50,752 nt of DNA from a virus: positions 1 to 50,752 of the IMG/VR virus record IMGVR_UViG_3300020442_004288, one strand, 5' to 3'. Shown one piece after another: positions 12,412 to 43,931 of the stretch. Under the pieces are notes generated by a model. That model worked only from the letters and a program-made list of their open reading frames with translations. It searched no databases and had not been told where the DNA came from. The position numbers were made by a program, and so were the translations under genes. The stretch's first letter is position 1, and the number at the start of each line of letters is the position of its first letter.

Positions 12412-12417
12412 AAAATT

Positions 12418-12433
12418 GTGTACTTATATAAGT
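12418..12433 (+). promoter_or_regulatory. GTGTA-type element upstream of prohead protease
   Basis: GTGTA at 12418-12422 is followed by CTTATATAAG and lies 16 bases before the ATG at 12434, just after the portal stop. The arrangement closely resembles the element at 2296. The promoter role is inferred. Confidence 0.4.
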
Positions 12434-23000: not shown

Positions 23001-26000
23001 AAAAGCCATTCCGCAATCAATTACAGATATTCTATTAACTTCACCCTTGCTTGTAATTGAAACCACTCCTTTAAAAGTGTATGCAAATACTTCATCAGCT
23101 ATAGTGTCATTAACACTACAATTAAACATTTTGGCTACAGCAAGTTTTCTTTTTGCTGGAGTATCTAGCGATGTGGGTCTACCATATACAATAAATCTAG
23201 TATTTTTATTACCATAGTTGGGTCTATATCCCGACCCTTTATTTGCAATATCAAATCTTTGAATATCATCTCCACTATTGGGAGATATGCCAAACGTTCT
23301 TTCTTTTACAAAAGTTAAGGATATACTAGTGCCGTTTGATAAAATTGTTTTATATCTAAAATCTGTATCATTTCCAGCATTATTAATATTGTAACCTTTT
23401 ATTCTTCCAGTGTAAATAGTTTTGCTAGCAGCACTTCCTATTACGCTTTCTAAACCGTCTCTCCTGTAATCTGTCTTAGCTTTAAATGCGTCATCAGTGC
23501 TAGTGTTTATAGATATTGTTTCAGATACTAGTGTAGTTTTTATCGGATCATAATTTTCTTCTGTTAGTGGATTGATAGCAATGTCTGCATCTACATCAAC
23601 AGTAGTATTTGAACTAAACCCAGCCCCTTGCCAAGTGGCATTCATTTTATAAGTATCTCCTTTAGGTGCAGCATAATGACAGGGACTATGTTGAGTTGCA
23701 GTAACATCATAACTGCCACCTCTAGTCATGAAGTTAAAATAACTTCCCGCAAATTGATTCCACATCGGATCTGCTCCAGATAATTTAGATAATGTTTTTG
23801 CTGTATTCTGTTGGGTGGTAAATAATAATTCTTTTAGCGGAATCCTTGAGTCATCAGTTTGAAGGATAACTCCTAAATCTTGATAATCAATTTGAGCTGT
23901 CATGTTATTCATTCCAGCATTAATTTTAGTTTTTAATTGACTAAATATAGGGAATAATTGATTGTTTGCAAGAGATTCTGAATGTGGCCAAATTTGAGTT
24001 CTAGCATTATTTGGATTAGTTCTATATTCATCAGGGTCTCGTGTTACTATCTTTTGATCTATAACCGGGTTATCTGGAACTCTAATTAAGTGAGCGCTTT
24101 GAATTTTACCCTCACTATTAACTCTGCCAACAGCCTCTATTAGAGTTGGGCAAACATGTATATAGTAATTAATTGGTTGATCTGGCCCATTCCAGACTTC
24201 CCTATAAAGTCTAACTACATAAACTTGTATTCTAGGAAATGTATTTGGCTTGTAAAATCCTTTTTTATTGTTAGTGAAATCTAATTCATTTGATCCATCT
24301 TTGTAAATATGCAAACCGGCAAATGTATTTCTACCCCCAACACAAGCAGTTGCATTAAAATTAGTTCTAAAAGTAGATCCAGCTCCCACACCATGAAAAA
24401 TCCATTGTGTAGCTGTTGAAAATCTAGCGCTGCTATTATGCGTAACAAGGTGAGTATACAATAAGCTTCTAAAGGTTGCGTTAGTTACAATTAATGTTGA
24501 AAGTTTGGTTGTAGTAGGTAAGCTTCCGCTTCCGCACGAACCCCAAGTAACCAAGTTGCCGGGGTTGTAGGTGACTCCACTTCCACATTGACGACTGTTA
24601 TTGATTCCACCGCAACTGCTAGGTTTCGCACTACTTCCGCCTGTTCCATTAACGAAAGATCCAAGTGTAATTCCAGTTTCAAAACAATTTAAAATTTGAG
24701 ATACTGTTCCAGTGAATGTGATAGTGCCAGTAGTTGGGCTGCTCTTTGAGCAGTATCCCTTTTGCCACTGAAGAATTACAAAAGTTATAGTAGCACTTAA
24801 GTTTATTTGACCAGCAAAAGAATCGGGTACAATTCTAGCTACTTGAGTAGGGGCTGCCCCTATGTTAGAAGTTTCATCATTTGCAGTATAAGGGGCGAGC
24901 GGATTGGGTCCTCCATTTTCTTGCGAAACCTGAAACGGTTTATACAGGTCGGCAGAATATGAGTTCATGTACTGGGTAGCTTTTATAATTGAAACAATAT
25001 TTTTATGAGAAGCATTGGCAAAATCAGCGAACTCCGCCCTGCATCTTCTTCTGTCAGTATCTATTAGTGTGGCACTTGGACCTTGGTCTGATGTTATAGT
25101 GCTTCCGTCAGGAAGTATTCCGCTTCCTAGCGTTGCTTGTGAATTAGCTGGTGATATGGTTGCTCGAACGGTTCCTTGATTAGTTGCATATCCGTTGCCC
25201 ATGCTAAAGTCTTTTTTTACAATATTTAAATTATCTTCACCGATTTGATATGTTTCTAACTCTCCCTTGTTATCAATATAGTTTTTAATTTTTACCCCAA
25301 CAGAGCCGGGTCCAATATATGACTCAAAAGCATTAAACCACGACTCTCCATTATCACTAATAAAATCGATACTGCCATCAGATGGATCATATTCGTATAT
25401 GGAGCCATAAAAATTATCATCTTTAGCAGTCATTGCTGGACCATTAAAGCTAGGTATAGTTGCTGGAGAACTATCAACTGGAGGGTCAACTTCTATCATG
25501 TCGGCAATGCTTTTAGTGCCTCCCTCATACACATTACCAACTTCATAGCCTTTTCCGGCCTGACTAATTGCCAAGGTATTACCTCCATTGAAATTAATAC
25601 CTCCTATACCATTAAATGTCAAGGGCTTAACAGATGCTCTCCTATTAAAAGCAGCTGAGCTAATCCCTCCTGCAACAGGCTCTGGTAGAACTTGCTGCCC
25701 GTGATACTCATTACCTGTAACGGGTAGAGCTAAACCAGCGATAGGTCCTTCACATAATAGTTCTACTGATCTGTGGAGAGATATAGATTCAAGTTTACCT
25801 TTACCCCTAGTAGACCATTCACCCCTGCTACCCACAGTATTGTAGGGTGTTAAGTTAGTCCAGTTACCTTGTTTTCCGTATGTATTATTTGTACTGTTAA
25901 ATGTTGCTGAAGCAATTCTAACTGTTGGGTTAGTAGAATCATTTGGCCTAAAAGAATACTCGTAAGGCTCTGAGTTTTTAGATAAAGCACTGGGTTTAGA

Positions 26001-26837
26001 AGGCATGACGGCAGATTGGGAATCTGCAAAACCTATATCTCCTCCTTTTGATTCTCTGTTGCCGGGAGTAATTATTTCTGTAGCCTGACTAAAACCTCCA
26101 CCATGAGTGGCATCATTAGAAGAAGAGTTTACTCTGGCATTACCTAAGCGTTCTTGAGGAACCTGAGCCCCATCAGATCCAATTCTAACAACCCTTCTAG
26201 TGTCATCGCTTATATTATAATCAGATCTTTCCTGATAATCTTCATCAATCGCAGTGGACTCTAAGTTTTGGAGGTATCCAAAATTATATACATCTAAATT
26301 AGTTAATGCTTCTTGATATATCTGAGTGGACTTCCAGTCAAAATCATAATTTCTTACAGAAGAAGATACTGTTTTAGTTCCAATTCTCAACTGTCCGTAA
26401 CCAGCTGGTATAGCAGCTCCTTGTTCAACTAAATTTTTATTTTGATTGTATATGTAAGAATTGGTAGAAACTCTTTCGTATTTTTTAAGCCCTGACTTCT
26501 TTTTTTTGTTAAGCTTATTCATTAGCCACTGCATGGCAAACCCCTGACCAAATCCAGCAAGCATACCACCAACTCCAGCTAAATTACCTTGAGGTTGAAC
26601 TAAGAAATCTAGGGTTAAGTCTTTAAGTTTAGGTAGATCTTCTGGGAATACAACTTTATCCAGATCCGGACTATACATGTAAAATTCAGTACCATTTTTT
26701 AATGAATTTAATATATATTTAAGGAAGCCCGGTTTTATACAGTCCAAACATCTAGCTATATTATCATGCTCTGTAATTGACAAAGAAACCTCTTTACCAA
26801 AAAGTTTTTGCATTTCTCCGTAAAATTTAATTTTCAT
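20070..26837 (-). CDS. Tail tip host-specificity protein: gpI-like domain fused to gpJ-like
   Basis: This 2255-residue protein is the J-like central tail tip hub. Residues 1-~115 resemble lambda gpI: a ubiquitin-like start (MKIKFYGEMQKLFGKEV), then a glycine-rich helical stretch (GVGGMLAGFGQGFAMQWL). The J part then begins (IPAGYGQLRIGTKTVSS), with the conserved VELLCEGPIAGLA near residue 363. A very large middle insertion (about 400-1550) includes GSGY-type beta repeats. Two hydrophobic helices follow, near residues 1590 and 1660. The C-terminal J core is clear (NPAWIIYDLITDKTFGAG near 1880; LRPGDIIKVMD near 2085). The ATG overlaps the K-like gene by four bases. gpJ binds the receptor and ends DNA-channel closure; I and J are normally separate genes. 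Confidence 0.8.
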   Translation of the reverse strand: MKIKFYGEMQKLFGKEVSLSITEHDNIARCLDCIKPGFLKYILNSLKNGTEFYMYSPDLDKVVFPEDLPKLKDLTLDFLVQPQGNLAGVGGMLAGFGQGFAMQWLMNKLNKKKKSGLKKYERVSTNSYIYNQNKNLVEQGAAIPAGYGQLRIGTKTVSSSVRNYDFDWKSTQIYQEALTNLDVYNFGYLQNLESTAIDEDYQERSDYNISDDTRRVVRIGSDGAQVPQERLGNARVNSSSNDATHGGGFSQATEIITPGNRESKGGDIGFADSQSAVMPSKPSALSKNSEPYEYSFRPNDSTNPTVRIASATFNSTNNTYGKQGNWTNLTPYNTVGSRGEWSTRGKGKLESISLHRSVELLCEGPIAGLALPVTGNEYHGQQVLPEPVAGGISSAAFNRRASVKPLTFNGIGGINFNGGNTLAISQAGKGYEVGNVYEGGTKSIADMIEVDPPVDSSPATIPSFNGPAMTAKDDNFYGSIYEYDPSDGSIDFISDNGESWFNAFESYIGPGSVGVKIKNYIDNKGELETYQIGEDNLNIVKKDFSMGNGYATNQGTVRATISPANSQATLGSGILPDGSTITSDQGPSATLIDTDRRRCRAEFADFANASHKNIVSIIKATQYMNSYSADLYKPFQVSQENGGPNPLAPYTANDETSNIGAAPTQVARIVPDSFAGQINLSATITFVILQWQKGYCSKSSPTTGTITFTGTVSQILNCFETGITLGSFVNGTGGSSAKPSSCGGINNSRQCGSGVTYNPGNLVTWGSCGSGSLPTTTKLSTLIVTNATFRSLLYTHLVTHNSSARFSTATQWIFHGVGAGSTFRTNFNATACVGGRNTFAGLHIYKDGSNELDFTNNKKGFYKPNTFPRIQVYVVRLYREVWNGPDQPINYYIHVCPTLIEAVGRVNSEGKIQSAHLIRVPDNPVIDQKIVTRDPDEYRTNPNNARTQIWPHSESLANNQLFPIFSQLKTKINAGMNNMTAQIDYQDLGVILQTDDSRIPLKELLFTTQQNTAKTLSKLSGADPMWNQFAGSYFNFMTRGGSYDVTATQHSPCHYAAPKGDTYKMNATWQGAGFSSNTTVDVDADIAINPLTEENYDPIKTTLVSETISINTSTDDAFKAKTDYRRDGLESVIGSAASKTIYTGRIKGYNINNAGNDTDFRYKTILSNGTSISLTFVKERTFGISPNSGDDIQRFDIANKGSGYRPNYGNKNTRFIVYGRPTSLDTPAKRKLAVAKMFNCSVNDTIADEVFAYTFKGVVSITSKGEVNRISVIDCGMAFDDEMGNGLPITIESLSHLSPGTSNQLGNHAFWIRDAENDAFMSPANHWSTSRVLDSNVVGQAKSDLVMTGNVLSSGNDKGKVTNIIITSNGSGFTLNDRFDVKFNEAVSSGATVPAYDPPTFSVVVVDNAISSITLTSNGSGYGTSDSVVPVRMPKPTKVNTATTVQNPVDSYSWASCVYLDDVPIRDKFGRFNFSKFDIDLKTGNIHNGSDVAQKKLISFDKAPATAQNQLVNKILKEEYRVPLQTKDVNYFLYGPRNQGQKDYFYSYDIKNRNVSAVILSIEVEKLFYIYEGDSETVYVNFAPALFGAIGFFIGQKLGEMLLNEIFSNLFPDIGVTAPGTWSGCMSGPTSPQKQIGMSPWNLLKVGAKVASFFITTALGLAGMALGHILGEKVKCSTMKFLCIKVGNKIENSGEYWPARVEFVVEYFLEGQSTITRKMIQVNGIATSKYVRDIIIDDLPEPVGDNQNRIIRIFRVTREMDPVVGGEKEARYNMSANLKSVTEVVEGVFSYPHTSLIATRTNSKDFSNIPNKEYLLKLKKVKIPSNYNPEVSMDLIEATDPHLDAMYNGVWDGKFKQHAYLGAGGSNNSSEIGFFWTNNPAWIIYDLITDKTFGAGKYGINPESVDKWSFYKFAQRCDELVDVAVGNSTEKEKRHTCNLYIDTEQNAYELVNKLLDNYNSDLHWSAGEVFITQDAPSTEVMLFNDSNISEAGFAYSTTEATTRYTACAVDYLDEKDNYRKKTEYVEDFEGIKDLGYSKLSISAAGITRRGEAHRLAWHKILTYQTEKEIVTFTAGLEAAYLRPGDIIKVMDNKRVSKHSGGRIVRVIDSNSLELDIPVSALGSTSSILIQRPIQSTDLSNDAISDSSEIADYRKAQFAEYTISSSSGFILNLSSDLDSSIKSGYAWMVKENNMGSEIIKPSDFKVKTITEQDGLKFTISAIEYHDEKFDAIDKSSASTGENFEARKYTGHNIVIS

Positions 26838-30779: not shown

Positions 30780-31579
30780 TTCTTATTAATATAAGTTTTG
30801 TAATTTAATTGAACTTTAATAACTCCATCTGCACTAGAACTAAAAGATTGATTTAGCAATCTTGCTTTTTTTAATGTAAATGTTTCTATATTGTTATCGT
30901 TTATAGGGTTAGCAAAAGATATTGTTATGTCTTGTTGCTTTGGTTTAATTAAATACTCTCTCATTCTAGTAATTTGAAAGTCATCAATTTCTAAAGAAAA
31001 GCTAGCTTGTTGAACTAAAGGAGTTTTTCTGTCAACTTGAACTGGATACGGCGAGCCAATTTTATAAACAGGAGATCTATCTACTCTGAGGGAATAACTA
31101 AAGTCCGTTATTCTATTACTTTTATAACCACTTGCATTTAAAGATATAGAGCCTTGGTTGGGTATTTGTATATCTGGATGAGAGTTTGATCCAGAAGAAT
31201 CTATACCAGAACCTATATTGCCATAAACTGAGATGCCAGCACTTGCCGTAGGTATACTTCCAATTGAACAATTAATAGAATAATCTGTTAAATATCCAGA
31301 CTCAAAACCAAAACTTTTATTATCATAATTAATACTTCCACTAAGAGGATTGTCTCCAGTATAATTCAATATAGGCTCTTGACCTATATAATATTTTGAT
31401 ATAGAAAATCTACCTACCATAGGGCCTGTTCTATCTGGAAAGGTATAACCCTTCCCGATGATATTGATTGGAGATTCACTAATTGAGTATTCCCCGCCAA
31501 CAGCAGTTACTCCAGATAATTGAACTCCTGACAAATAAAATTGATGCTCGTAATTCGCTATTGCATTTTTAGTTGCCAC
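30776..31579 (-). CDS. Tail-tube-like beta-sandwich structural protein
   Basis: This 267-residue protein begins at GTG 31579 within the end of the tape measure frame (11-base overlap), with GTAGGAGG as ribosome site eight bases upstream. It is mostly short beta strands (SGSINYDNKSFGFESGYLTD; YSINCSIGSIPTASAGISVY), a pattern typical of tail tube or distal tail proteins. The next gene is its paralogue. In lambda the tube gene comes before the tape measure rather than after it, so a tube-like distal ring is as likely as the main tube. Role inferred. Confidence 0.5.
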   Translation of the reverse strand: MATKNAIANYEHQFYLSGVQLSGVTAVGGEYSISESPINIIGKGYTFPDRTGPMVGRFSISKYYIGQEPILNYTGDNPLSGSINYDNKSFGFESGYLTDYSINCSIGSIPTASAGISVYGNIGSGIDSSGSNSHPDIQIPNQGSISLNASGYKSNRITDFSYSLRVDRSPVYKIGSPYPVQVDRKTPLVQQASFSLEIDDFQITRMREYLIKPKQQDITISFANPINDNNIETFTLKKARLLNQSFSSSADGVIKVQLNYKTYINKK

Positions 31580-34500
31580 GAAGCATTCCTCCTACCCTTT
31601 GCTCTTCCGCTATAACTTGGAGAACAGCAGCCTTTAATTTTCCTGCCATTGCCGTTTGACCTTCTGTGGCATTACCTTCTACCGATGTAGCTCCAGAGTC
31701 TGAAGAGCTAGAGCCTACATTTATGTTTACCGTAACATTATTATTAGAGTTGTTTTCAGTATTAGAACTAGAGACATTAGATGAATTTGAGTTTTGATTC
31801 GACACTAAACCTCCTTCAGCAAAACCTCCAGACTTATTCAGTCGATCAAGCATGCCGGGATACTCTCTCTCCATTTTTTGCACACTTCTAGATCTAATAA
31901 CAAATTCTCCCTCATCAAGCATAAGGGGTCCAACTCTATCGATTCCAGCAGGACCAGTAACAGATCCGCCTTCACTATAGCCTTTTATATTTCCATAATT
32001 ATTGACTGTTCCACCCAGAAAGTATTTCATGGCTTTTGCTTGAGGAGTGATAGCATCGTTATAAATTCTATTTAAATTTTGCTCAACTTGTTTGTTGATG
32101 GTCGTCTGATTCATTGCGGTACTATTGGTTACAGAACCGCCTGAGGCATATTTTAAATCTTCTAGCGCTCTATAATAGGGAGAACTAGAATCTGTATTTA
32201 GAGACATTGGTATGTGTGAACCAAAATTTTGAGACCAAGCTTTATTTTCTGCCATTGAATAATTTTTATCAATAGCAGCCATTGAGGTTAAGCCTTTTCC
32301 TGCTTGCTGAGCTTCAACTCCAGATTTTGCTCTTGCAATATTGTAATTAGTTGCCCAAAGCTCCGAACTGCTAGGAGAGGTTTTAGCTTTAAAATTATCT
32401 GCAAACCCCGGTCTACCTGACGCGGTATAACTACTCCACCACTCAGCTGCATCTTTTCCGCTAAGTTTTGATCCAGTTTTATCATTTTGTACTGCCCAGT
32501 CTGACATGTGTTGAGCGGCTGGAGATTGAGTTTTTCCATCGCCAGCCATAAAGTCTACTCTTCTTCCTCCTTCAGTTGCATAAACATTTCCAGTTTTATC
32601 TCTATGTATTTTTACTACTTCTCCTGATGGACCTTTGCCGACATTCATTCCACTACCATTCATTTTAGCTCCATTGTATCTATTTTGTATACTATTACCA
32701 ATAGAACTTCCTATTGCAGCACCCGCTAAACTTGCAAGGCTATTTGCTATCTGCCCTATATATTTAGCTCTATCTGCAACTTTTTTGTTTTGTTTTTGAA
32801 CATTGTATTCGTATTTATCCAATAAGTATTTTGCATAATCTTGACTAGTGGTATCCATTTTTCTAAACCTACTACTTAGTCTAGGATCTCTAATATCCAA
32901 ATCTAATGTGCTAGAAGTATTAAGTTTATTCATTTTTGGAGGCTCTGGTGGACCTGCACCGGGAGCTTGTTTTTTTCTACCCATATATGCACCAAGGGCA
33001 GTACCTCCCATCATACCCACTCCATAACCTATATCATTCCAATTCTGATCTTTAGTTCTTTGTCTTGATATATTTTGGACTCCGCCGCCATAATTATAAT
33101 GACCAACAACTCCGCCAGAAAAAAGTTTTTCAATGGTTTTGCTTGTAGAATTTGAAACAGACCCACCTTCCTTGAAGTTGTTATTAATCTCCTTTAGTCT
33201 CTCCTCTATCCTTTCTGTTCCATTTGAGTCCTCTGAGGGAGAGTTTGCGGAAAGCATACCTCCACCCACTAGAGGCGCAGAGAGTGTTTGCATTGGGGAA
33301 TTAGAAGGAGAGCCGAAAGATTGCATATCTCCACCAAGAATATCGAAAGTTTCAGAGTTTGGTTTTTCAAATAAATCCTCTAAACTTTCGCCTCGATTCA
33401 TTCTTTCTAATGCTTGCCTGCCAATACTATCAACAGCTTTTTTTCTAACTACATATTCGCCTGCTGTGAGCATGGCTGGAACATCACTTTTTGTTCTGCC
33501 TCCACTATTAAAATTAGTAACCATTCCACCTGTGTGAAATTTATTCATTCCCATCATGTCGAACAAACCAGCAGTCATTCTATCTGCCGCTTGATCAAAC
33601 ATTTTGTCTTGTATTTTACCAGCTATGCTGGCTGCCATTTTTAAAAATGCATCTCCGGCACTCATTGTCCCTTCGGATAAATCCTTAAGGAGACCCTTGA
33701 ATCCATCTTTAACTCCATCAAATGCAGTTTCAGCTAAAGTTTCAGAAAATCTAGCAGCCCGTTCTGTAGCTTCAGCAATTTTAACATTAATCGTGTCCCA
33801 GAATAAAGTGTTTCGACCAGCTTCTATATTAAATTCTTTTAGATTTTTAGCTAAATCTACATTAGCTTCATTACTCTTTAAAGTATTGCCTGACATGCCA
33901 TAACTGTCTCTTCTTGCTTGAGATTCTAAAACTTTATCCTCTGCAGCAGTTAGGGCTTGCCTTCTGTCTGTCCCAGCTTGTATTCCGAAAAAGTTCTTGT
34001 CTTTTCTGGCCTTTAAGGTGTCTTCTGAATTTTGAGCATCTCTTTCAAGTTGCTCTATTTCATTATCAACTCTTGCTTCAACAGCTCTTAATAAAGATTT
34101 CCTGACAACACTTTCTTCTTCAGATAGTTTACTGCTTTCGTTTAAGGTTCTTAAAATGTCTGTTTCTAGTTTTAACTGCTCTGTTTCTAGATCCATTGAA
34201 GTAAGTTTATTTGCAACACTTTCTTCAAGAAGTTGCCTTTCTTCTTTAGCTTTCTGCAAGGATAAGTTATCTTCTGCAATTCTATTTTCAATAATTGATC
34301 TAGTTTCTTTTATGCCTACAGTATCAGAAGCTTGACCATCTGTAGGTTTTTTTCTTTCATTTAACTGTTCTCTAAGTCGAATTGTTTCCGCCTGATTTAG
34401 TGCTGTTTGTTCTTCGAGATCAGCAACTATTTTTTCTCTTAACTCTTGAATCTTAACATTAGTTTTTAATTCGTTTAATAGTATTTTAGCTTTACTGCTT

Positions 34501-37500
34501 GATACATCGGATTCACTTCTCTCTAGAGAAAGTTGCATTGCAGCCTCCTGCCTCATAGACTCTTGATTTGAAAGCATGTCGTAATTCTGGTCTATTTGAT
34601 TTCTTTTAGTTTTTACAGTTTCTTCAATAGCCAGTCTTTCAAGATCACTTCCTTTTAAAACTCCAAGTTCGGTTTTGATGCCATCTCTTCTAAGTTGAGA
34701 TATTACATCTAATTGAGCTATTGATTTTATTCTTGAAGATTGCTCGTTCTGTAAAGTATCTTTTATTCCAGAAATAAACTTGGTATATTCTACTTCATCG
34801 GCACTGCCTTGAATTATAAGATTAACCCTATCTGTAAGTGCTTGATCAACATTTTTATTATTTTGAAGGATTGATCTTATTATTCCTGCAGACTGATTTT
34901 CCATCTTTGCTTGATCCATGGAGGAAATCGCTGCTTTTTGTGCTTCAGCAGTTCTAGTTCTTTGTAAAAGAGACATTTTTACACCTTCCTCAGTTACGGC
35001 CATAGCGGCTTCTTTTGCAGAAGTTTCAGCCTGAATTGTAGCTAGTCTCAAATTACCAATTGCCTCGATAGAACTCATGCTCTCTAGGCGACCTTTACTT
35101 TCTTCAATAATTTGTCTTTGTTGAGCCTCTTCTAGTTCTAATTTTTTTGCACCCAAAGCCCTAAGCTGCTCTTGTAGTTTTACTTGTGCTGGACCAGCTT
35201 CAATAAGAGAATCTGGAAGAGAAGTTTTTAAGTCTATCAACTGTTTGCTAATCTCATCAATTTCTTCATTGACCAGAATTTGCTTTCTGGAGACAGAGGT
35301 GCTTCCGGGAGTTCCAGTATCTCCACGTCCCATTCTTACGCCCCTGTTCATCTGAGCTAAAAATTCCAGTATACTTCCTCTACTTTGACTATCTTGCTCG
35401 TTATATCTTTGCGCTGTTAGGCTATTGGAAACACGGTTCTGCATTGAAGTTGCAAATCTACCTCCCATTCTTGCATTATCAAAAGTTTGCCCTAGTACTA
35501 CAGCTTCTGCAGATCTTCTATCTCCAAATTTATCAGTTTGCACTCTAGATAGTTGCTCTGTAGTCATGTTTTCTAGCTCGCTAGTAGACCTTTCCACCGA
35601 AGAGTATTTATTAATTACCTGTATTAAAGACTTTCTGAACTCTTGGTCAGTTTTTTGCATGTTTGCTTCTCCCGCAAAAATAGCAGACATTTCTTTTGCT
35701 AATTGCATTTGATCAGCTGTCATATTTTTTAAGGCGGTATCCATTTTTATATTACCAACTTGAGTGTCTGCTGTCTCTCTGATGTTTGCAGTTTGTTGAG
35801 TTACTGTTTCTATGTTTCTTAATTTATCATTAAGTACATCAGCTTGCATAGTTAGAATGTTTCCGTCTTGATCTCTTAAGTTTCGGTAAAATTGTCTAAA
35901 ATCTTCAAAACCTTCTTTTGCACTAATTGCACCTTCATTTAGAGCTTTATTTACTTTTTTAATTTTATCAGCCAAATCTTTTAGTTGATCGTCTGCAACA
36001 TCCCCATTAAATAATTGTTGAATCTGGCGGGTGTCAGAAGTAAGACTTACGGCATCTACGTTTGCTCTTCTGATTTCAGAGTCTGCGTTTTGCTGAACTG
36101 ATTGAATTTGAACATCGCCAGCTTGTTCATTTAGAGCTCTTTGCGATGCTACATTCATTTTGTTTAGAATACTTAACCTAGCATTCATCAAACTCAACTC
36201 TTTCTTTAACATATTATCTCTATGTTTAAATTCAGCATTTTGAAGAGTAATTGCATGTTGTAAGTTTTTATTAAATTCCTTTCTCCTCATTGTGGAGGCT
36301 TTGATCTCTTTTTCCTCTTCTTTAGCCGCTTGAAATTCTTTTCTAACTTGTTCGGCTCTATCTTTAAGGACTTTATTCATTTGGTCCCTAGTATAACCTT
36401 CGTCTTGCATTTCTAGCATAAGTGCATTCATTGAGGTAGCAAGGCTCTTGGCACTTTCTTGAGAAATTTTATCCAGAGAAGGATCTTCTGCTACTGTTCT
36501 TAGTTTATTCTCAAAAGCTTTTAGAGATTCATCTGCATCACTACCTTCTAAAGTATCCATTAATGCATCAAAACTTTTAGTATCTAAGTCTAATCTGCCA
36601 GCTTGCTCTCCAAATATTTTTGCAGTAGTTTTTGTTTGGTTCTTAACATCATCACCCATTCCAAGTATATCACTATCACCCAGCCAAAGGTCAAGTCCTT
36701 TTGTTGAAGCTTCTTCAAAGCCTTCTAACTGTTTTTTGATAAATGCATCTGTGTCCAATAAATTACTCTGCCTTTGAACTTCGTCTCGTGTTGCAGTTCC
36801 AGATTGTATTCTTTCATTTAATTTTAAAATTTCATTATCTAAATCACTTCTTTCATCACTGTCCTTGCCTTCAATCCTATCAACAACATCTTCTGAGGCG
36901 TCAGCAAATTCATTCATTGCTTCAGCCGCTCTTCTTTGAGCTTTTATTAAATCGTTTGTTAACTTATTTATTTCAAGCATGTCCTTAGAAGAAATCTCTG
37001 CATCATTTTTTGCATACATATCTTCTAATTTAGATTCTATACTATCAATTTCGTCAAAAGCAGCCATAGATTCAGCGGCTTTTTCAGTTGCTTCTTGCAA
37101 TTCTTCCAGTGAATTGGTATATTGATTTGACATTCCAACAGCCTCCATTAGGCTTTGGGCATAGGAACCTATATTAATATCAAATGCACTAAGTATTCCG
37201 GCTACCGCCTGAAAACCAGTAATGACCCAACCTATTGGATTGCTAAGACGTCCAAATAAAGATCCTACTTTAGCTACAGTACCCACTACTTGGCCTAGCA
37301 TCCTACCTCCCTTCATAACTGTTTTTATGGTATTACCCATGCCTCTGGCCATTCCAGCAATTCTACCAAAGGCTCCCGGCAGTTTGCCAGCCCTTGGAGT
37401 GCGAGTCGCTAAAGACTTACCTTTAGAATCTTTTAGTACTGGCCCAGAAGTTACGGCTGGATTTACCGTAGCAGTTGTAGCCAAGGGTCCAACGGGTTGA

Positions 37501-40500
37501 GATAATCCGGGAGTAGTCGCTCCACCTTGCATACCTGCTACAGCAGAACAGGCCGCAGAAACATTCTTTTCAATACATTGAGATTGTTTTTCTAGCGCGT
37601 CTGATCCCGCATCAGCCATATCTGATATTTTACTTTGAGTTTCTGCTATTTTCTTAGCTGCACCACCGTCTTCACCCATTCCCGCTTTAGCTTTTTTCCA
37701 GACATCAGAAAAACTGCCCCCTTCTGCTGTTCCTTGTTTCATGGCATCGCCAAATCGACCAAGTTCTTCTCCAGCTTTTCTCATCCTCCCTGCTATAGGT
37801 CCTAATGCACTCCAAACTAAAGCTGTATTCGCTATAGTTTGTATAATGTCATTGAAAGTTCCCATGAAATTCATACCCGTTTCTTCGAATATTCCTTGCA
37901 TTGCATATGTGGCTGTAGTTAATCCAAACAGACTCATTTGCATTTTTTCCATACTTTGAGCGGTTCTTTCGTAGGCGGTGCCATCTACGACAGCTTGCCC
38001 TCCCCCCTCATAGTTTGGAATAAAACCTTTAGCTGCACCATATTGCTGGGGGTCTCTTCCTTCCAATTTAGCTCTCCTAATTCCCTGCTTTATACCTCCG
38101 GGCTCATCTCTTAAATTAGTAACTGCTAACCCAAGAGGGTTTTGTTCATTTTCTAAACTCTTATCTTTTTCTATTCTTATTTGGGATTTAGGAATACCAG
38201 CTTGTCTTTCTCTGTTTATTGCTTCTTTTAGTGCGTCAGATTTAGCGAAATTTGGAATAAGGCCAAAAGATGCAGCAATTCTACCTTCGTATGTTGGGTC
38301 TGAGTATTTAGCAAAAGACCTACCGGGACTATCCTGCATTCTTCGTGCAAATTTTCTATTGTAAAATTTAGTTACTTTTTCCTGTAGTTCTGGTGGGAGT
38401 TGTCTAAATTCATCTGAGCTTATATACTGTCTAAGATTTTGAATAGTTTGATTTGCAACGTCTGCATTTCTTCTTGGTATCTTAAATAATTCAGCTCCAC
38501 TTAAACTTTTTAGTGGAGGGGTAATCATATTTTTAGAATTAAATCTAGCTAAAGATGTACTAAGTTTTGCATATTCTCTACCAGCTATTCTAGACTTTAT
38601 AAAGTTAGGTATAAGACCTTTTGCAGATACTTTTGCGCCCTTAGGAACCATAACATTAAGGTTACCTAGATCCCTGATGGGCATATCAGGTTTCCTATTT
38701 AAAATTGGGGGCTCTTTTCTGCCCGCAGTTTTCAACCATTGATTTGCACCTTTTCTTAAAATTTGAGTTGGGCTTTGACTTGCTTTTGTTTTTACTTCTA
38801 TTCTCTCGCCACTTGCTGTTCTAAGATCAAAGTATTCATTGCCTTGGCCAATCTTGGCTCCTGTTGTTCGAGCTGCTGAAACTTCACCTTCAATTCCAAT
38901 AACATTATTTCTAATGCTATTTTTTTGCCCTTCATTTCGCTTTCTTGGATTTAATTGATAGTTTCTGATGGCGGTAGTAATTGACTGTAATGTGCTTTTG
39001 TCTGCCCCAGCATTCATACTATCCCTCATCCATTTGTTACCTACATGAATTGATGCAGGTTTTGTGTCTCTAAATGTTGGGTCATTTAATAATTGTGAAG
39101 TAATAGAATTTGCATCAGAATTAAATTTTTTAAAATCTTTGTTTTGATAAAAAGGTACTACTGTCGCCTTAAACATATCCATGTCATCAACTGGATGTTT
39201 CTTTTGCTCGCGCATCATACCGCCACCCATACTGGCATTAATTTCTTTAACAGTTTTTTGTATTGGTATGGGAGAACCTTTATCAATAGAGCCTTCTAAG
39301 TATCTTCTGCCTGAAGGTCCATCAAAAATATTTGAATAGTCAACGAAATTAGGAATAAAACCTTGTCCCGCATTAATTGTTTCAAAACGCGCGGATTGGC
39401 TTTTAAGCAATTCAATAAATCCATCTTGATTCTTAGGAGCTTTTAATGTTCCTTTTAATTGCCTCTCAGACCTTAGGTCTCCAGCCATTGGGCTTGCAAT
39501 TCTTTTTTGCCGCCTATCTTCTATTGTTTTGTCACTTGCTGCAATGTAAGAAACTTTTCCTCCTGATTTATTAACAGATTGTATTATTTGCTGTAACTTT
39601 GGAGATAGTCCAGTTTTAGATAAGCCTGCTCCAGAAAGAATAGTGAAAACAGAAGCATCATCCAAATCATCTAAAGATTGTATAAAGTTACCTTTTTTGG
39701 CAGCACGGGTTGATTTACCTACTCCAGAGGGTCCTATCATTAAATCTTTTTTAGCTTGAGCATTTAAAATATTGTTTAAAATTTCAGTAGCCGCACTAGA
39801 CCTTAATCTATCAGAATCAAAAACTTTGTTTGCAAAACTAGGAATGAATCCTCCAGCAAAACCATTTTTGAACATTGCAAGATCTTCAATTGCAACACTT
39901 GTGCTAGAAAGTGGATCTAGACCCATTGCTCTTAAATAATTTGCTACCTCTCGTTCTTCGCCTTCCTTGTAATCTTCTTTAGAGGCAAAAGGACTTCCGT
40001 CTGCTGATCTTTGCTTGTTTTCATGAATATACTGCATCAATTTTGATGGAGTCATGTCTCCACTAATTTTCATTCTAGGAATATTCTTTCCTGAAGATCT
40101 TTGTCTGTTTAGTAGTTTGTGACCTTCTACCAAAAGTCTTGGTATTCTTGGCCCAATAACAAAACCAGCTTTTAAGTCTGTATATGGTCTTCCTGCTTTT
40201 GCGGACTCTGTAATATCTTTATATATAGATCTTATTTGGGCTGGACCTTGACCTCTTTCTGGACTAATCCATGTAAGATCTAGTGCTCTTGGTTTTACGG
40301 AAGAGCTACCTTTTCTTGCTGGTAGCAAACCTTTAGCCGCTTGACCATAAATATTATCAGCCATTTCAGGTTTTGTATTGACTGTAGTTAAGTCTTGTAT
40401 AGATATTACATCCATACCGGGCATGCCGGGATAAGCCCCCAATGCATCTTTAAAACCTTGCCTATCCATTTTATTAACACTGCTTCTTAACTCCTTCAAG

Positions 40501-43500
40501 CTGTCAAATCTAATTCTCTTTCCTTCTGGTCCATGTATTAGCCTGCCAGTAGTAATTAAGTTAGGTTGCATTCTGTATTGCAATTGAGGAAATGCATGAA
40601 CCAAGTCTTCAAAGTTAGTTTTACTCCCTTGCTTGTAAGACTTTTGTTGCTTAAGTGAAGGAGATGTATACGCACCCCCTTCTTTCATAAATTGCCCACC
40701 CGCCTCACGTTTAAACATTTTAAATGCGTCACCTTTTTTATTGGATTGTAAGAAATCTATTTCCCTGTCTCCAATTTCATTGGTTGTATAGTTCATGTAG
40801 GAGCCAGTTTCAGTTTCTGCTATCTGTCTACCTCTTCTCCCAAAACCTCCATCTAGTCTTATGGCTGTATTTTTAAAAGCAAAATTAGGAATGTATCCAG
40901 AGGCAGTAAATGTTTCTAAGATTTTTTTTCTTTTCTCTTCAGGAGGCATACTACTATGTATTAAACCTTTTGATTCTAACAGTCTTTCGCTCTTTCTATA
41001 ATTAGCAGTATTTAGTCCCGCTACTAAATTTTGAACATCAGGGTGATTATCATTAACATATTTTAAAAAATCGTAGTCAGAATAAGATCTTAAACTTTTA
41101 TACAAAAGGTTTCCTAGGGAGTATCTTCCTTTTTTATTTTCTATCGGCCTCAAGCCTTCACCAATTAAGTCGGTATTAAAAGTATCATTACCATCTTTAC
41201 CTCCTGTAGAAATATATTTTTTAAATTGCTCTGGCAAAACCTTTTTGCCATCTGGAGTAATTCCTAATCCTCCAGCAAGACCAGATTCTGATTTTAATTG
41301 TTTGATTGCTTTGGATTTACCATCACCAGCTGAATGTAATTGTTGCAACTTAGCTCTTTCACTTAACTCTCCGTCAGTTTCGTGTTTTTTTCTTTTAAGC
41401 ATTGTGCTTTTGGCAGCTCCTTGAAAAAACATATCACGACCTATTCTATTTACTCCTTTTGATTTTAAGGTTTGAAGTAAATCATATAAGGGGGCATTAT
41501 GACTACCCCTTGCTGAAGTAATTTCGTCAAGCCCAGCTTCTACATACATTGGTTTACCGCTTTTAATCGCAGCTTCAACCTGTTTATCTAAAGATCTATT
41601 TCTTAGTCCGCCAGAACCTACAGCCACACTTTGAAATGCTGGATTTAATTTAAGTAAATCACCTTCTCTTCTTGCAAAATTAGGAATAAAACCCTCCCCG
41701 TAGGCACTTGGATTATCTACTCCAAACCTACTTATTCTGATTTGATTTGGAGGTGTACCATAAAATATTTCACGAGAAGAACCTTTTCCTCCGACTCCGT
41801 AGCCAGTCATTTCTTTTTTATAAGACCGAAGTAAACCTTCTACGATTTCTTCTAAAGCTCCGGGTTTAGCTCCATCTAAATTATATTCTTTTCTTAACCT
41901 AGACTCAATATTTTTCCTGAGTTCTAAATCTGTTTTTTCTTTTTGTTTAAATTTTATATTTTTATTTGCAGGATCTGCTAAAGCCCTTCTAATCTTTACA
42001 TCTCTAGGTGTTCTGTCAACAAAATTTGGAACAAACCCTTGTGCAGCATAAGGATCAAAGCCATGAACTTCATTGAAAGTTTTTTGATATTTTTTTCCAG
42101 CCCTACTTGATTCTGGTGGCATAATTGCTGGCTGTCTCATTCCTTTAAACTTTTTTATTTTTTCAGCTTGATTATAGGCAACTTCACCAACACCGGGAAT
42201 GTCCATTACTTTTACTGCTCCAGCTGTATAGCCAGCCTTTGTTGCTTGAGACCTTTCAATTCTTTCTTGCTCAGAGGTAGCCTTTTTATTAAAATTAGGA
42301 ATAAAGCCTTTGGCTGCTCCCGTTGTAGGCATAGTCAAATCTGTATTAACACCGGCCCTAGCTAGCGCTGGGGCTAATTTTGATGCAATTTGCATTTGAG
42401 CTTCCATTTGTTTAGTTTGAGCTTCTATTACCCCAAGTATTATTTGTTCTTGTTTAAGTTTATCTCCTGCAGCTTTATTTAATTCATCTGCTAAAATTCT
42501 ATTTTGAGACATTGCCTCAACTATACCTTCTTGAATTTTCTTTTCTCTATCTTTTTGTGTTACAATACCTAAAACATCTTTCAGGGATTGTTTGGCAAAT
42601 TTTAATGCATTAAAAAATAATTTAGCAAATACACCAATAGCTAAGACCATACCCGGACCAGTAATTACATTACCAATACCCTTGACTATTCCTTTAGCAA
42701 AATCAGAACCAATTCCCTGAGAATCATCTGATAATAAATTGTTTAAAGAATCTCCTATAGAATTAATTTTTTCTAATAAAGATTCAATTCCCGGAGCTAA
42801 TGCTAACTCACCAAGATTTGCGGCTAGTTCTTGTAGGGTTAGGCTTGTTTGAGCTGCTAAAGAAGATAAAGTTCTGTTCAGCATTGCATTTTTTTGAGCA
42901 GCTTGATCGGTTGCAGAAGAAGAAACTTTTAATGCTTGGGCATTTAATGAATTTGCATTAGCTAAGTCTTTCATTGCGGCTTTTAAAATATTGATCTGGA
43001 AAACACCACCAACTTGTTCTGCTACAGCTGCTTTTGTTGAATCCCCAAGAGTATCATATGTTTTTGCTAAGCCCGTCAAAACTTGCATTGCAGGCAAAGT
43101 CTCGCCTTGAACATTTCTAACAGCGACACCTAATTCTTCTAGTCTATCTAAAGTAGAACTTCTTTGAAGTCTAGTAAAAATTGTCTTAAAACTATTTCCT
43201 ATTACAGCACCTCCTCTTGCAGTAATTTGTTGAGCAGAAGTAACTGAAGCTATTAATTGATCCATACTTAAGCCAGCCTCTTGAGCCACGGCTCCAGCTC
43301 TAGATAAAGCATTAACAAGATCATCGGCACTAACTGCAAACTTTACATCTACTGCAGCCAATTTATTAATAACGTCTGTAGTGCTAACGCCAGCATCGGC
43401 ATAACTGTTCACTGCTGCGGTTAAACCTTTTACAGAATCGGCTGCTTTCATACCAGTTAGTCGAGTTAATATGAGAGCATCGTTTGTTCTTTTTAAGGTT

Positions 43501-43931
43501 TCTTCCATACTTAAACCTTGTCTAGAAAATTCTAATGCTGCTTCAGCAGCAGTATCTAAAGTCTGTGCTGTATTTCTTGCTACATCAAATAACTGGTTTC
43601 CAAATTTCTCTAAATTTGCAGCTGATGTACCTAGAACTACATTTATATCTGTTAAAACTTTTTCTACTTTTACTGCCTGCACAACCATTTGTTCGAAAGC
43701 TTTACCAACTGAACCTATGATTGCTGCTGATGCACCAAATGCTATAACACGAGCATTTGAGGCTTCTATAGATTTTTGAAATTCATTCGCCTTATCAGTG
43801 ATTCTGCCAAGAGGTTGAGTAAAATTGCTAGCATTAAGTTTAACTGGCAATCCCCTCCTGTTAATCCTGTTGACGATAGCATTAAGCTGCTCCTCAAATC
43901 CGACTGGTCTTGTAGTAATATCTAGTGGCAT
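31569..43931 (-). CDS. Giant tail tape measure protein with embedded enzymatic-looking segments
   Basis: This 4120-residue protein sets tail length. Residues ~20-400 form a TP901-type tape measure core (SVGKAFEQMVVQAVKVEKVL; ARNTAQTLDTAAEAALEFSR). Hydrophobic segments lie near 430, 2000 and 2230; long helical coiled coil covers about 2280-3440. C-terminal motifs DVPAMLTAGEYVVRKKAV (near 3480) and LMLDEGEFVIRSRSV (near 4000) are related to each other. Residues 542-1974 carry nine G(F/Y/L)(I/V)P(N/S)(F/Y) motifs dividing unlike segments, including a P-loop (GPSGVGKST, 1400-1408) and a PD-(D/E)XK-like site (D1702, E1712, K1714). A fully helical 4120 residues would span about 600 nm, an upper limit because the embedded segments look globular. 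The ribosome site is AAAGGAATAAGGT before the ATG. Confidence 0.9.
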   Translation of the reverse strand: MPLDITTRPVGFEEQLNAIVNRINRRGLPVKLNASNFTQPLGRITDKANEFQKSIEASNARVIAFGASAAIIGSVGKAFEQMVVQAVKVEKVLTDINVVLGTSAANLEKFGNQLFDVARNTAQTLDTAAEAALEFSRQGLSMEETLKRTNDALILTRLTGMKAADSVKGLTAAVNSYADAGVSTTDVINKLAAVDVKFAVSADDLVNALSRAGAVAQEAGLSMDQLIASVTSAQQITARGGAVIGNSFKTIFTRLQRSSTLDRLEELGVAVRNVQGETLPAMQVLTGLAKTYDTLGDSTKAAVAEQVGGVFQINILKAAMKDLANANSLNAQALKVSSSATDQAAQKNAMLNRTLSSLAAQTSLTLQELAANLGELALAPGIESLLEKINSIGDSLNNLLSDDSQGIGSDFAKGIVKGIGNVITGPGMVLAIGVFAKLFFNALKFAKQSLKDVLGIVTQKDREKKIQEGIVEAMSQNRILADELNKAAGDKLKQEQIILGVIEAQTKQMEAQMQIASKLAPALARAGVNTDLTMPTTGAAKGFIPNFNKKATSEQERIERSQATKAGYTAGAVKVMDIPGVGEVAYNQAEKIKKFKGMRQPAIMPPESSRAGKKYQKTFNEVHGFDPYAAQGFVPNFVDRTPRDVKIRRALADPANKNIKFKQKEKTDLELRKNIESRLRKEYNLDGAKPGALEEIVEGLLRSYKKEMTGYGVGGKGSSREIFYGTPPNQIRISRFGVDNPSAYGEGFIPNFARREGDLLKLNPAFQSVAVGSGGLRNRSLDKQVEAAIKSGKPMYVEAGLDEITSARGSHNAPLYDLLQTLKSKGVNRIGRDMFFQGAAKSTMLKRKKHETDGELSERAKLQQLHSAGDGKSKAIKQLKSESGLAGGLGITPDGKKVLPEQFKKYISTGGKDGNDTFNTDLIGEGLRPIENKKGRYSLGNLLYKSLRSYSDYDFLKYVNDNHPDVQNLVAGLNTANYRKSERLLESKGLIHSSMPPEEKRKKILETFTASGYIPNFAFKNTAIRLDGGFGRRGRQIAETETGSYMNYTTNEIGDREIDFLQSNKKGDAFKMFKREAGGQFMKEGGAYTSPSLKQQKSYKQGSKTNFEDLVHAFPQLQYRMQPNLITTGRLIHGPEGKRIRFDSLKELRSSVNKMDRQGFKDALGAYPGMPGMDVISIQDLTTVNTKPEMADNIYGQAAKGLLPARKGSSSVKPRALDLTWISPERGQGPAQIRSIYKDITESAKAGRPYTDLKAGFVIGPRIPRLLVEGHKLLNRQRSSGKNIPRMKISGDMTPSKLMQYIHENKQRSADGSPFASKEDYKEGEEREVANYLRAMGLDPLSSTSVAIEDLAMFKNGFAGGFIPSFANKVFDSDRLRSSAATEILNNILNAQAKKDLMIGPSGVGKSTRAAKKGNFIQSLDDLDDASVFTILSGAGLSKTGLSPKLQQIIQSVNKSGGKVSYIAASDKTIEDRRQKRIASPMAGDLRSERQLKGTLKAPKNQDGFIELLKSQSARFETINAGQGFIPNFVDYSNIFDGPSGRRYLEGSIDKGSPIPIQKTVKEINASMGGGMMREQKKHPVDDMDMFKATVVPFYQNKDFKKFNSDANSITSQLLNDPTFRDTKPASIHVGNKWMRDSMNAGADKSTLQSITTAIRNYQLNPRKRNEGQKNSIRNNVIGIEGEVSAARTTGAKIGQGNEYFDLRTASGERIEVKTKASQSPTQILRKGANQWLKTAGRKEPPILNRKPDMPIRDLGNLNVMVPKGAKVSAKGLIPNFIKSRIAGREYAKLSTSLARFNSKNMITPPLKSLSGAELFKIPRRNADVANQTIQNLRQYISSDEFRQLPPELQEKVTKFYNRKFARRMQDSPGRSFAKYSDPTYEGRIAASFGLIPNFAKSDALKEAINRERQAGIPKSQIRIEKDKSLENEQNPLGLAVTNLRDEPGGIKQGIRRAKLEGRDPQQYGAAKGFIPNYEGGGQAVVDGTAYERTAQSMEKMQMSLFGLTTATYAMQGIFEETGMNFMGTFNDIIQTIANTALVWSALGPIAGRMRKAGEELGRFGDAMKQGTAEGGSFSDVWKKAKAGMGEDGGAAKKIAETQSKISDMADAGSDALEKQSQCIEKNVSAACSAVAGMQGGATTPGLSQPVGPLATTATVNPAVTSGPVLKDSKGKSLATRTPRAGKLPGAFGRIAGMARGMGNTIKTVMKGGRMLGQVVGTVAKVGSLFGRLSNPIGWVITGFQAVAGILSAFDINIGSYAQSLMEAVGMSNQYTNSLEELQEATEKAAESMAAFDEIDSIESKLEDMYAKNDAEISSKDMLEINKLTNDLIKAQRRAAEAMNEFADASEDVVDRIEGKDSDERSDLDNEILKLNERIQSGTATRDEVQRQSNLLDTDAFIKKQLEGFEEASTKGLDLWLGDSDILGMGDDVKNQTKTTAKIFGEQAGRLDLDTKSFDALMDTLEGSDADESLKAFENKLRTVAEDPSLDKISQESAKSLATSMNALMLEMQDEGYTRDQMNKVLKDRAEQVRKEFQAAKEEEKEIKASTMRRKEFNKNLQHAITLQNAEFKHRDNMLKKELSLMNARLSILNKMNVASQRALNEQAGDVQIQSVQQNADSEIRRANVDAVSLTSDTRQIQQLFNGDVADDQLKDLADKIKKVNKALNEGAISAKEGFEDFRQFYRNLRDQDGNILTMQADVLNDKLRNIETVTQQTANIRETADTQVGNIKMDTALKNMTADQMQLAKEMSAIFAGEANMQKTDQEFRKSLIQVINKYSSVERSTSELENMTTEQLSRVQTDKFGDRRSAEAVVLGQTFDNARMGGRFATSMQNRVSNSLTAQRYNEQDSQSRGSILEFLAQMNRGVRMGRGDTGTPGSTSVSRKQILVNEEIDEISKQLIDLKTSLPDSLIEAGPAQVKLQEQLRALGAKKLELEEAQQRQIIEESKGRLESMSSIEAIGNLRLATIQAETSAKEAAMAVTEEGVKMSLLQRTRTAEAQKAAISSMDQAKMENQSAGIIRSILQNNKNVDQALTDRVNLIIQGSADEVEYTKFISGIKDTLQNEQSSRIKSIAQLDVISQLRRDGIKTELGVLKGSDLERLAIEETVKTKRNQIDQNYDMLSNQESMRQEAAMQLSLERSESDVSSSKAKILLNELKTNVKIQELREKIVADLEEQTALNQAETIRLREQLNERKKPTDGQASDTVGIKETRSIIENRIAEDNLSLQKAKEERQLLEESVANKLTSMDLETEQLKLETDILRTLNESSKLSEEESVVRKSLLRAVEARVDNEIEQLERDAQNSEDTLKARKDKNFFGIQAGTDRRQALTAAEDKVLESQARRDSYGMSGNTLKSNEANVDLAKNLKEFNIEAGRNTLFWDTINVKIAEATERAARFSETLAETAFDGVKDGFKGLLKDLSEGTMSAGDAFLKMAASIAGKIQDKMFDQAADRMTAGLFDMMGMNKFHTGGMVTNFNSGGRTKSDVPAMLTAGEYVVRKKAVDSIGRQALERMNRGESLEDLFEKPNSETFDILGGDMQSFGSPSNSPMQTLSAPLVGGGMLSANSPSEDSNGTERIEERLKEINNNFKEGGSVSNSTSKTIEKLFSGGVVGHYNYGGGVQNISRQRTKDQNWNDIGYGVGMMGGTALGAYMGRKKQAPGAGPPEPPKMNKLNTSSTLDLDIRDPRLSSRFRKMDTTSQDYAKYLLDKYEYNVQKQNKKVADRAKYIGQIANSLASLAGAAIGSSIGNSIQNRYNGAKMNGSGMNVGKGPSGEVVKIHRDKTGNVYATEGGRRVDFMAGDGKTQSPAAQHMSDWAVQNDKTGSKLSGKDAAEWWSSYTASGRPGFADNFKAKTSPSSSELWATNYNIARAKSGVEAQQAGKGLTSMAAIDKNYSMAENKAWSQNFGSHIPMSLNTDSSSPYYRALEDLKYASGGSVTNSTAMNQTTINKQVEQNLNRIYNDAITPQAKAMKYFLGGTVNNYGNIKGYSEGGSVTGPAGIDRVGPLMLDEGEFVIRSRSVQKMEREYPGMLDRLNKSGGFAEGGLVSNQNSNSSNVSSSNTENNSNNNVTVNINVGSSSSDSGATSVEGNATEGQTAMAGKLKAAVLQVIAEEQRVGGMLRGN
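38010..42308 (-). repeat. Nine dispersed GFIPNF-type motifs in the tape measure
   Basis: The motif occurs at plus-strand positions 42291, 42021, 41676, 40881, 39834, 39345, 38601, 38247 and 38010 (first base of each 18-base stretch), i.e. residues 542, 632, 747, 1012, 1361, 1524, 1772, 1890 and 1969. Forms are GFIPNF, GFVPNF, GYIPNF, GFIPSF, GLIPNF and GFIPNY. Spacing ranges from 79 to 349 residues and the sequence between is not repeated, so these are boundaries rather than tandem repeats. Confidence 0.9.

Follow-up and report, generated by a model that had tools for sequence, protein, structure and literature searches.

A predicted P-loop kinase-type domain among exchangeable, motif-bounded cassettes of phage tail tape measure proteins

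Here we describe, in a 50,752-base IMG/VR virus record (the window, meaning the whole stretch of DNA that was analysed), a segment of a tail tape measure protein that probably adopts a P-loop kinase-type fold, a statement that rests on a structure model and from which ATP or NTP binding and catalysis are inferred. By comparing the DNA of related genes, we show computationally that this P-loop cassette, like dozens of unrelated segment families, is gained, lost or swapped as a whole unit between copies of a short repeated motif. We favour, with some reserve, the interpretation that the tail tape measure carries this segment as exchangeable cargo, in the form of a small enzyme domain with a kinase fold; both the delivery and the catalysis are inferred.

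Results

The cassettes are carried by an intact open reading frame of 4120 aa (31569-43931, minus strand), the largest gene of the window. This ORF matches PhageMin_Tail (Pfam PF10145, E 9.4e-24) over aa 118-309 (43005-43580, minus strand) as well as the PHROG tape measure family phrog_4211 (E 1.4e-42), and the neighbours of the gene match minor tail proteins; judged by its sequence, it is a tail tape measure protein. Among motif-bearing ORFs whose N-terminal regions were scanned, all ten were likewise tape measures, with phrog_4211 as the top match. Searched alone, the tape measure N-terminus has relatives (~25-34% identity) in phages that include SPbeta-like, Slash-like and lactococcal ones and Microcystis phage MaeS; the annotated tape measure of MaeS is without a GFIPNF-type motif. 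Elsewhere in the window, we noted a 2255-aa ORF in the tail region (20070-26837, minus strand), a 927-aa ORF with a weak match to a minor head protein (17287-20070, minus strand; phrog_19577, E 1.5e-5, residues 742-819), and a 523-aa ORF, probably coiled coil, that weakly matches a tape measure family (12416-13987, plus strand; phrog_1533, E 3.9e-5).

Nine copies of the motif split aa 542-1974 of the window's tape measure into eight segments. A motif scan places them, all on the minus strand, at aa 542-547 (GFIPNF, 42291-42308), aa 632-637 (GFVPNF, 42021-42038), aa 747-752 (GFIPNF, 41676-41693), aa 1012-1017 (GYIPNF, 40881-40898), aa 1361-1366 (GFIPSF, 39834-39851), aa 1524-1529 (GFIPNF, 39345-39362), aa 1772-1777 (GLIPNF, 38601-38618), aa 1890-1895 (GLIPNF, 38247-38264) and aa 1969-1974 (GFIPNY, 38010-38027); the copies at aa 1361-1366 and aa 1524-1529 are the left and right motifs of the P-loop cassette. 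Over 479 distinct contexts, the motif consensus is A-[AS]-x-G-[FY]-[IV]-P-N-F-A. A DNA pattern for GFIPNFA was found in at least 120 viral stretches and in 119 stretches of cellular genomes. Two or more motifs within one frame occurred in 100 of the 120 viral stretches (among the matches listed), as opposed to only one of the 119 cellular stretches; the repeat therefore belongs to these viral proteins, and the lone matches elsewhere are background. Reading frames in the 100 viral contigs (again among the matches listed) hold 2-8 copies. The sole cellular contig with a repeated motif (L176) carries six motifs in an ORF that fills a 3,960-base MAG contig titled Proteobacteria bacterium; we took this contig for a binned phage piece, with no test behind that assignment.

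The motif copies bracket dozens of unrelated segment families. A census of 133 ORFs with at least two motifs, from which segments shorter than 40 aa were excluded, yielded 376 distinct inner segments in 94 clusters (60% coverage), with 52 singletons. In 50 complete ORFs the region before the first motif measures 531-639 aa, compared with 244-3672 aa for the cassette region. Many common segments (clusters 1, 3 and 4; ~65-80 aa) bear no enzyme sign. Two short recurrent cassettes of ~70-80 aa lie in the window at 42039-42290 and 38028-38246 (minus strand), belonging to clusters 4 and 1, respectively; these are often the first and last of the array in other tape measures too, and no function was seen for them.

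Evidence for exchange at the motif comes from a comparison of the DNA of 136 tape measure ORFs, in which gaps within the cassette region were retained when flanked by collinear blocks of at least 75% identity. The comparison returned 142 junction rows: the first block ends 0-40 nt past a motif start in 134 of these, the second block starts at most 30 nt from a motif start in 135, and both breakpoints fall at the motif in 127. After removal of repeated contexts, both breakpoints lie at the motif in 71 of 82 rows, against a mean of 1.03 of 82 expected for random breakpoints. Several pairs of loci display a clean presence/absence of one cassette next to the P-loop cassette, either before it (~400 nt in L128/L139 and 515 nt in L017/L159) or after it (820 nt in L061/L144). 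It should be borne in mind that some of the ORFs stem from one contig entered twice with different locus numbers, and that alignments tend to extend through a conserved motif, somewhat flattering the sharpness of the breakpoints while leaving the block replacement itself unaffected.

The P-loop cassette spans aa 1367-1523 (39363-39833, minus strand). The initial annotation had singled out, in the tape measure segment between the motifs at aa 1361 and 1524, a perfect Walker A (GPSGVGKST, aa 1400-1408; 39708-39734, minus strand), a possible acidic site in FIQSLDDLDD (aa 1416-1425; 39657-39686, minus strand) and a basic region, DRRQKRI (aa 1472-1478; 39498-39518, minus strand); all three are present exactly as described. 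A search with a profile built from six segments assembled a family of 39 viral-contig loci, and the cassette profile on the collected loci gave 50 ORF hits at E<1e-3, which reduce to 37 distinct sequences with the window's included; its 36 distinct relatives all come from uncultivated viral contigs. The Walker A pattern [AG]x4GK[ST] is kept in all 37 distinct segments, with the first G replaced by A in seven, and K1406 is invariant (37/37), so that the proposed site passes the test of conservation in homologues. The acidic site fared less evenly. FIQSLDDLDD corresponds to the short second strand and the acidic loop, where 28 of the 37 segments have D or E at position 1422 and the other nine have Q; its acidic character thus stands for most of the family and not for all of it. 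D1374, conserved in 36 of the 36 segments that cover it, may replace position 1422 as the catalytic acidic residue. The basic region corresponds to the LID, with R1473, R1474 and R1477 as LID-like arginines in the alignment of relatives; among segments reaching those positions, R1474 is kept in 36/36 and R1477 in 35/35.

The family also shows low rates of amino acid change, with a median dN/dS of 0.097 and a maximum of 0.248 across 96 pairs at ≥70% identity (our own Nei-Gojobori script; 8 of 104 pairs were left out, dS being too low or saturated). By this estimate, the P-loop segment family is under strong purifying selection. Its distribution marks the cassette as accessory: it is present in many different cassette orders and neighbourhoods, and in nine of 120 loci fetched by the motif alone, 100 of which have at least two motifs per ORF (among the matches listed). 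The left motif lies at the profile edge in 49 of the 50 ORF hits and the right motif in 45, a position that is partly by construction, as the motif was included within the profile. Outside uncultivated viral contigs, tblastn against cellular genomes found no relatives of the P-loop cassette, no plasmids with these cassettes were found, and the INPHARED phage collection held no match to the window's P-loop cassette (E≤1), to that of a relative, or to four other cassette queries.

An AlphaFold2 model of the window's segment, based on an alignment with 22 relatives (23 of the 37 distinct segments were used), reached a pLDDT of 87.1 and a pTM of 0.83. Disorder (runs of at least 3 residues with pLDDT <50) was confined to the motif ends at residues 1-4 and 164-169; a largely disordered segment, which would have undone the kinase interpretation, is thus not what the model predicts. 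In the model, strand 1 leads through the P-loop into a helix; a short strand 2 and an acidic loop come next, then strand 3, another helix and strand 4, and finally an arginine-bearing LID helix and strand 5. We take this succession to be the topology of small P-loop kinases. A structural aligner placed the zeta_1 toxin first (Z 8.9, 142 residues, 3.4 Å), with the polynucleotide kinase of C. thermocellum second (Z 8.5) and adenylate kinases following at Z 8.2 or less, and the neighbour rows listed are filled by P-loop kinases. The kinase-like interpretation of the initial annotation is supported by the fold order, by these neighbours and by the invariance of K1406; zeta toxins and polynucleotide kinases, to which that annotation had pointed, are among these neighbours in a tie with adenylate kinases, the three classes lying within less than 1 Z of each other and being indistinguishable. 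A Z near 8 can arise from a shared general arrangement.

Other searches returned little for this segment. Foldseek was weak: at E≤1e-3 it matched one PDB entry, an adenylate kinase, and it found nothing in the viral structure library. Neither Pfam, NCBIfam nor PHROG offered a model at cut-off or with a convincing E-value, and sequence profiles detect little outside the Walker A region. The Zeta_toxin Pfam model (PF06414) is not among the families for the window's segment at E≤10, and there is no paired antitoxin gene, the domain being internal to the 4120-aa frame. Matches from phmmer to designed alphaRep repeat proteins were rejected because they add up weak repeats over query residues 105-145 and are absent from the profile listings, whose best match spans the Walker A region.

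Beyond the P-loop cassette, 20 cassettes picked by eye as enzyme-like or common were scanned with Pfam, four of which scored above a curated cut-off; for the other 16, no Pfam model exceeded its cut-off. SNase was found in L099 (E 1.9e-9), a staphylococcal-nuclease-like cassette (PF00565; L099:8760-9341, minus strand) between GFIPNF motifs of a tape measure, and GNAT signatures in L060 (E 7.3e-8) and L045 (E 7.4e-5). The fourth, HIGH_NTase1_ass (PF16581, E 3.4e-8), occurs in L047, where one cassette (L047:4886-6145, minus strand) contains both a divergent P-loop segment and a part resembling nucleotidyltransferases, a pairing that we presume to recall NAD-related (NAD-salvage) enzymes. Below the Pfam cut-off were HATPase in L023 (E 5e-5), a GHKL signature within a 799-aa cassette (L023:4352-6748, minus strand), and ParB_N in L029 (0.006); the remaining 14 scanned cassettes gave at most weak matches, such as SNase in L106 at 0.011. 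Readings of other cassettes by eye as protein-kinase-like, ART-like, HAD-like or PD-(D/E)XK-like are without Pfam support, and PADLOC models gave no match for seven cassettes.

Within the window itself, the P-loop cassette is the only one with a well-predicted fold. The next cassette (38622-39344, minus strand) has a conserved E..FDL..EV[KR]T, kept in 4/4 aligned sequences, and is possibly a PD-(D/E)XK nuclease. Its model is poor (pLDDT 68), with a best Z of 5.4 to an aspartokinase and several PD-(D/E)XK-type endonucleases at Z 3-4; its identity as a nuclease is a guess.

Discussion

How a kinase-like domain inside a tape measure might act can be sketched only conditionally. Tape measures occupy the tail tube and exit at DNA ejection. 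Several tape measure copies bearing folded domains of such size would fit poorly in the tail tube, so the cargo could be unfolded in transit or located elsewhere. We infer that the motif stretch would form a flexible joint between bead-like domains, perhaps also a cleavage or docking site, and that the tape measure, which leaves the tail together with the DNA or before it, would carry the cassette domains to the envelope or the cytoplasm of the host. Soon after entry, the kinase-like domain may there phosphorylate a host small molecule, a nucleotide or a nucleic acid end, its substrate being unknown, and this phosphorylation could aid takeover or counter a defence. For lambda, the available portion of one source describes a tape measure that assists DNA crossing of the inner membrane (PMC13190303). 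No experiment shows delivery, processing or activity of the cassettes, each of which remains inferred.

Extended to the whole family, the cargo interpretation would have widespread uncultivated tailed phages combine a fixed N-terminal ruler with interchangeable enzyme cassettes, set between GFIPNF joints, recombined there and delivered into the host by the tail; we consider this evenly balanced between true and false. If it holds, such arrays would be the phage equivalent of polymorphic toxin systems, and the P-loop kinase-like domain would be one of their warheads.

Several alternatives must be weighed against exchangeable enzyme cargo. That the Walker A arose by chance in a tape measure stretch that is disordered or coiled is conceivable to the extent that GxxxxGK[ST] is short and that chance matches to it do occur in the same ORF set; conservation in 37 of 37 segments, along with an ordered predicted fold, refutes this account, to which we give practically no credence. 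A different objection accepts the fold and denies the enzyme, holding the cassettes to be structural length modules and the P-loop fold a relic or scaffold without enzymatic work. They do lie in a length-measuring protein, their totals range from 244 to 3672 aa in the 50 complete ORFs, and many carry no recognisable enzyme signature. However, mere filler would not be expected to keep the Walker A lysine in 37/37 and the LID arginines in 36/36 and 35/35 covered segments at a dN/dS of ~0.1, and SNase, GNAT and nucleotidyltransferase signatures would be pointless in it; the pre-motif region is, moreover, steady at 531-639 aa, as if the cassettes occupy one site. We find length modules improbable.

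The cassettes could instead do their work within the virion or while it is assembled rather than in the infected cell; NTP binding might, for example, assist tail-tube assembly or tape measure loading. Their carrier is a structural protein and, by inference, an NTPase could serve assembly, yet the P-loop cassette is an accessory one, at nine loci as against 100 motif-bearing loci picked regardless of it (among the matches listed), and the unrelated acetyltransferase and nuclease signatures of other cassettes are not suggestive of assembly; this role appears to us distinctly improbable. A narrower proposal, itself a special case of the cargo explanation, is that the domain, once delivered, works as an anti-defence or repair module aimed at a single system, for instance by repairing nucleotides, NAD or, in the manner of T4 polynucleotide kinase, cut tRNA ends. 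The tie of polynucleotide kinase among the structural matches is in keeping with it, as is the L047 cassette, with its divergent P-loop segment, PF16581 domain (E 3.4e-8) and presumed likeness to NAD-related enzymes. Against so specific a function, zeta toxin and adenylate kinase match equally well, PADLOC gave no match, and the sequence does not reveal a substrate; we regard it as possible, on balance unlikely. Of these accounts, the general one, a small kinase-fold enzyme domain as exchangeable cargo, is the one that we carry forward.

To our knowledge, a tape measure is viewed as a ruler and a conduit for DNA that carries no enzyme beyond, in some cases, one acting on peptidoglycan. If tape measures hold exchangeable strings of enzymes, tails would deliver effectors ahead of all phage gene expression. 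The cassettes would then amount to a store of unknown enzymes for takeover or anti-defence, which could be catalogued from sequence with a single motif. The kinase-like domain is small enough for direct expression and assay. The motif-bounded swaps also supply genuine recent mosaicism of tape measures: a large survey of mosaicism in phage proteins marked tape measures as mosaic by sequence and, in the portion of that source available, left genuine recent mosaicism unconfirmed (Smug et al. 2023, PMC10684548), whereas here DNA-level swaps have their breakpoints at the motif.

Among known enzymes, the Zeta/PezT toxin kinases (6eph, 6epi, 2p5t, 1gvn) share with the window's domain a P-loop kinase fold, a Walker A and LID-like arginines, and the match to the zeta_1 toxin (Z 8.9 over 142 residues) takes in the N-terminal strand. 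In contrast to these toxins, the window's domain has 11% identity, no Pfam Zeta_toxin match and no antitoxin, and is a ~157-aa unit buried in a tape measure. The C. thermocellum polynucleotide kinase (4gp7) is similarly a compact P-loop kinase (Z 8.5 over 118 residues); it differs at 15% identity, and in the window's family not every member has an acidic residue after strand 2.

For the array as a whole, our literature search, which covered no preprints and few subscription papers, found neither the GFIPNF string nor a description of motif-delimited cassettes in phage tape measures. One candidate precedent (PMC8876498) was set aside as unrelated, its kinase-domain gene being, in the part of the source at hand, separate from its tape measure. 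The Sle1 protein of Streptomyces, as far as the accessible text goes, is a tape-measure-like effector whose functional domains are exchangeable, and it is packaged in the tail-like particle of a contractile injection system (CIS) (PMC13277306). That system is bacterial and not a DNA-infecting phage, and the same text describes no motif-delimited multi-cassette array (PMC13277306).

Closer in cargo are the polyvalent proteins of phages and conjugative elements, giant strings of ART, GNAT, kinase, nuclease and zeta-like kinase domains that, in the sections available, are thought to enter the host alongside DNA, with cassette recombination suggested for one Verrucomicrobium locus (Iyer et al. 2017, PMC5512222). 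As to the polyvalent-type trait of several unrelated enzyme-like domains in one giant protein, enzyme signatures exceeded the cut-off in four of the 20 scanned cassettes, all from phages other than that of the window, where only the P-loop cassette has a well-predicted fold. Carriers of polyvalent cargo include MuF proteins, with zeta-like kinases among what they carry, whereas here the carrier is the tape measure; within the text obtained, the term 'tape measure' occurs 0 times and no GFIPNF-like separator appears (PMC5512222). We see the present arrays as a variation on this known theme: cargo of the polyvalent type on a carrier that is new, its joints marked by a motif.
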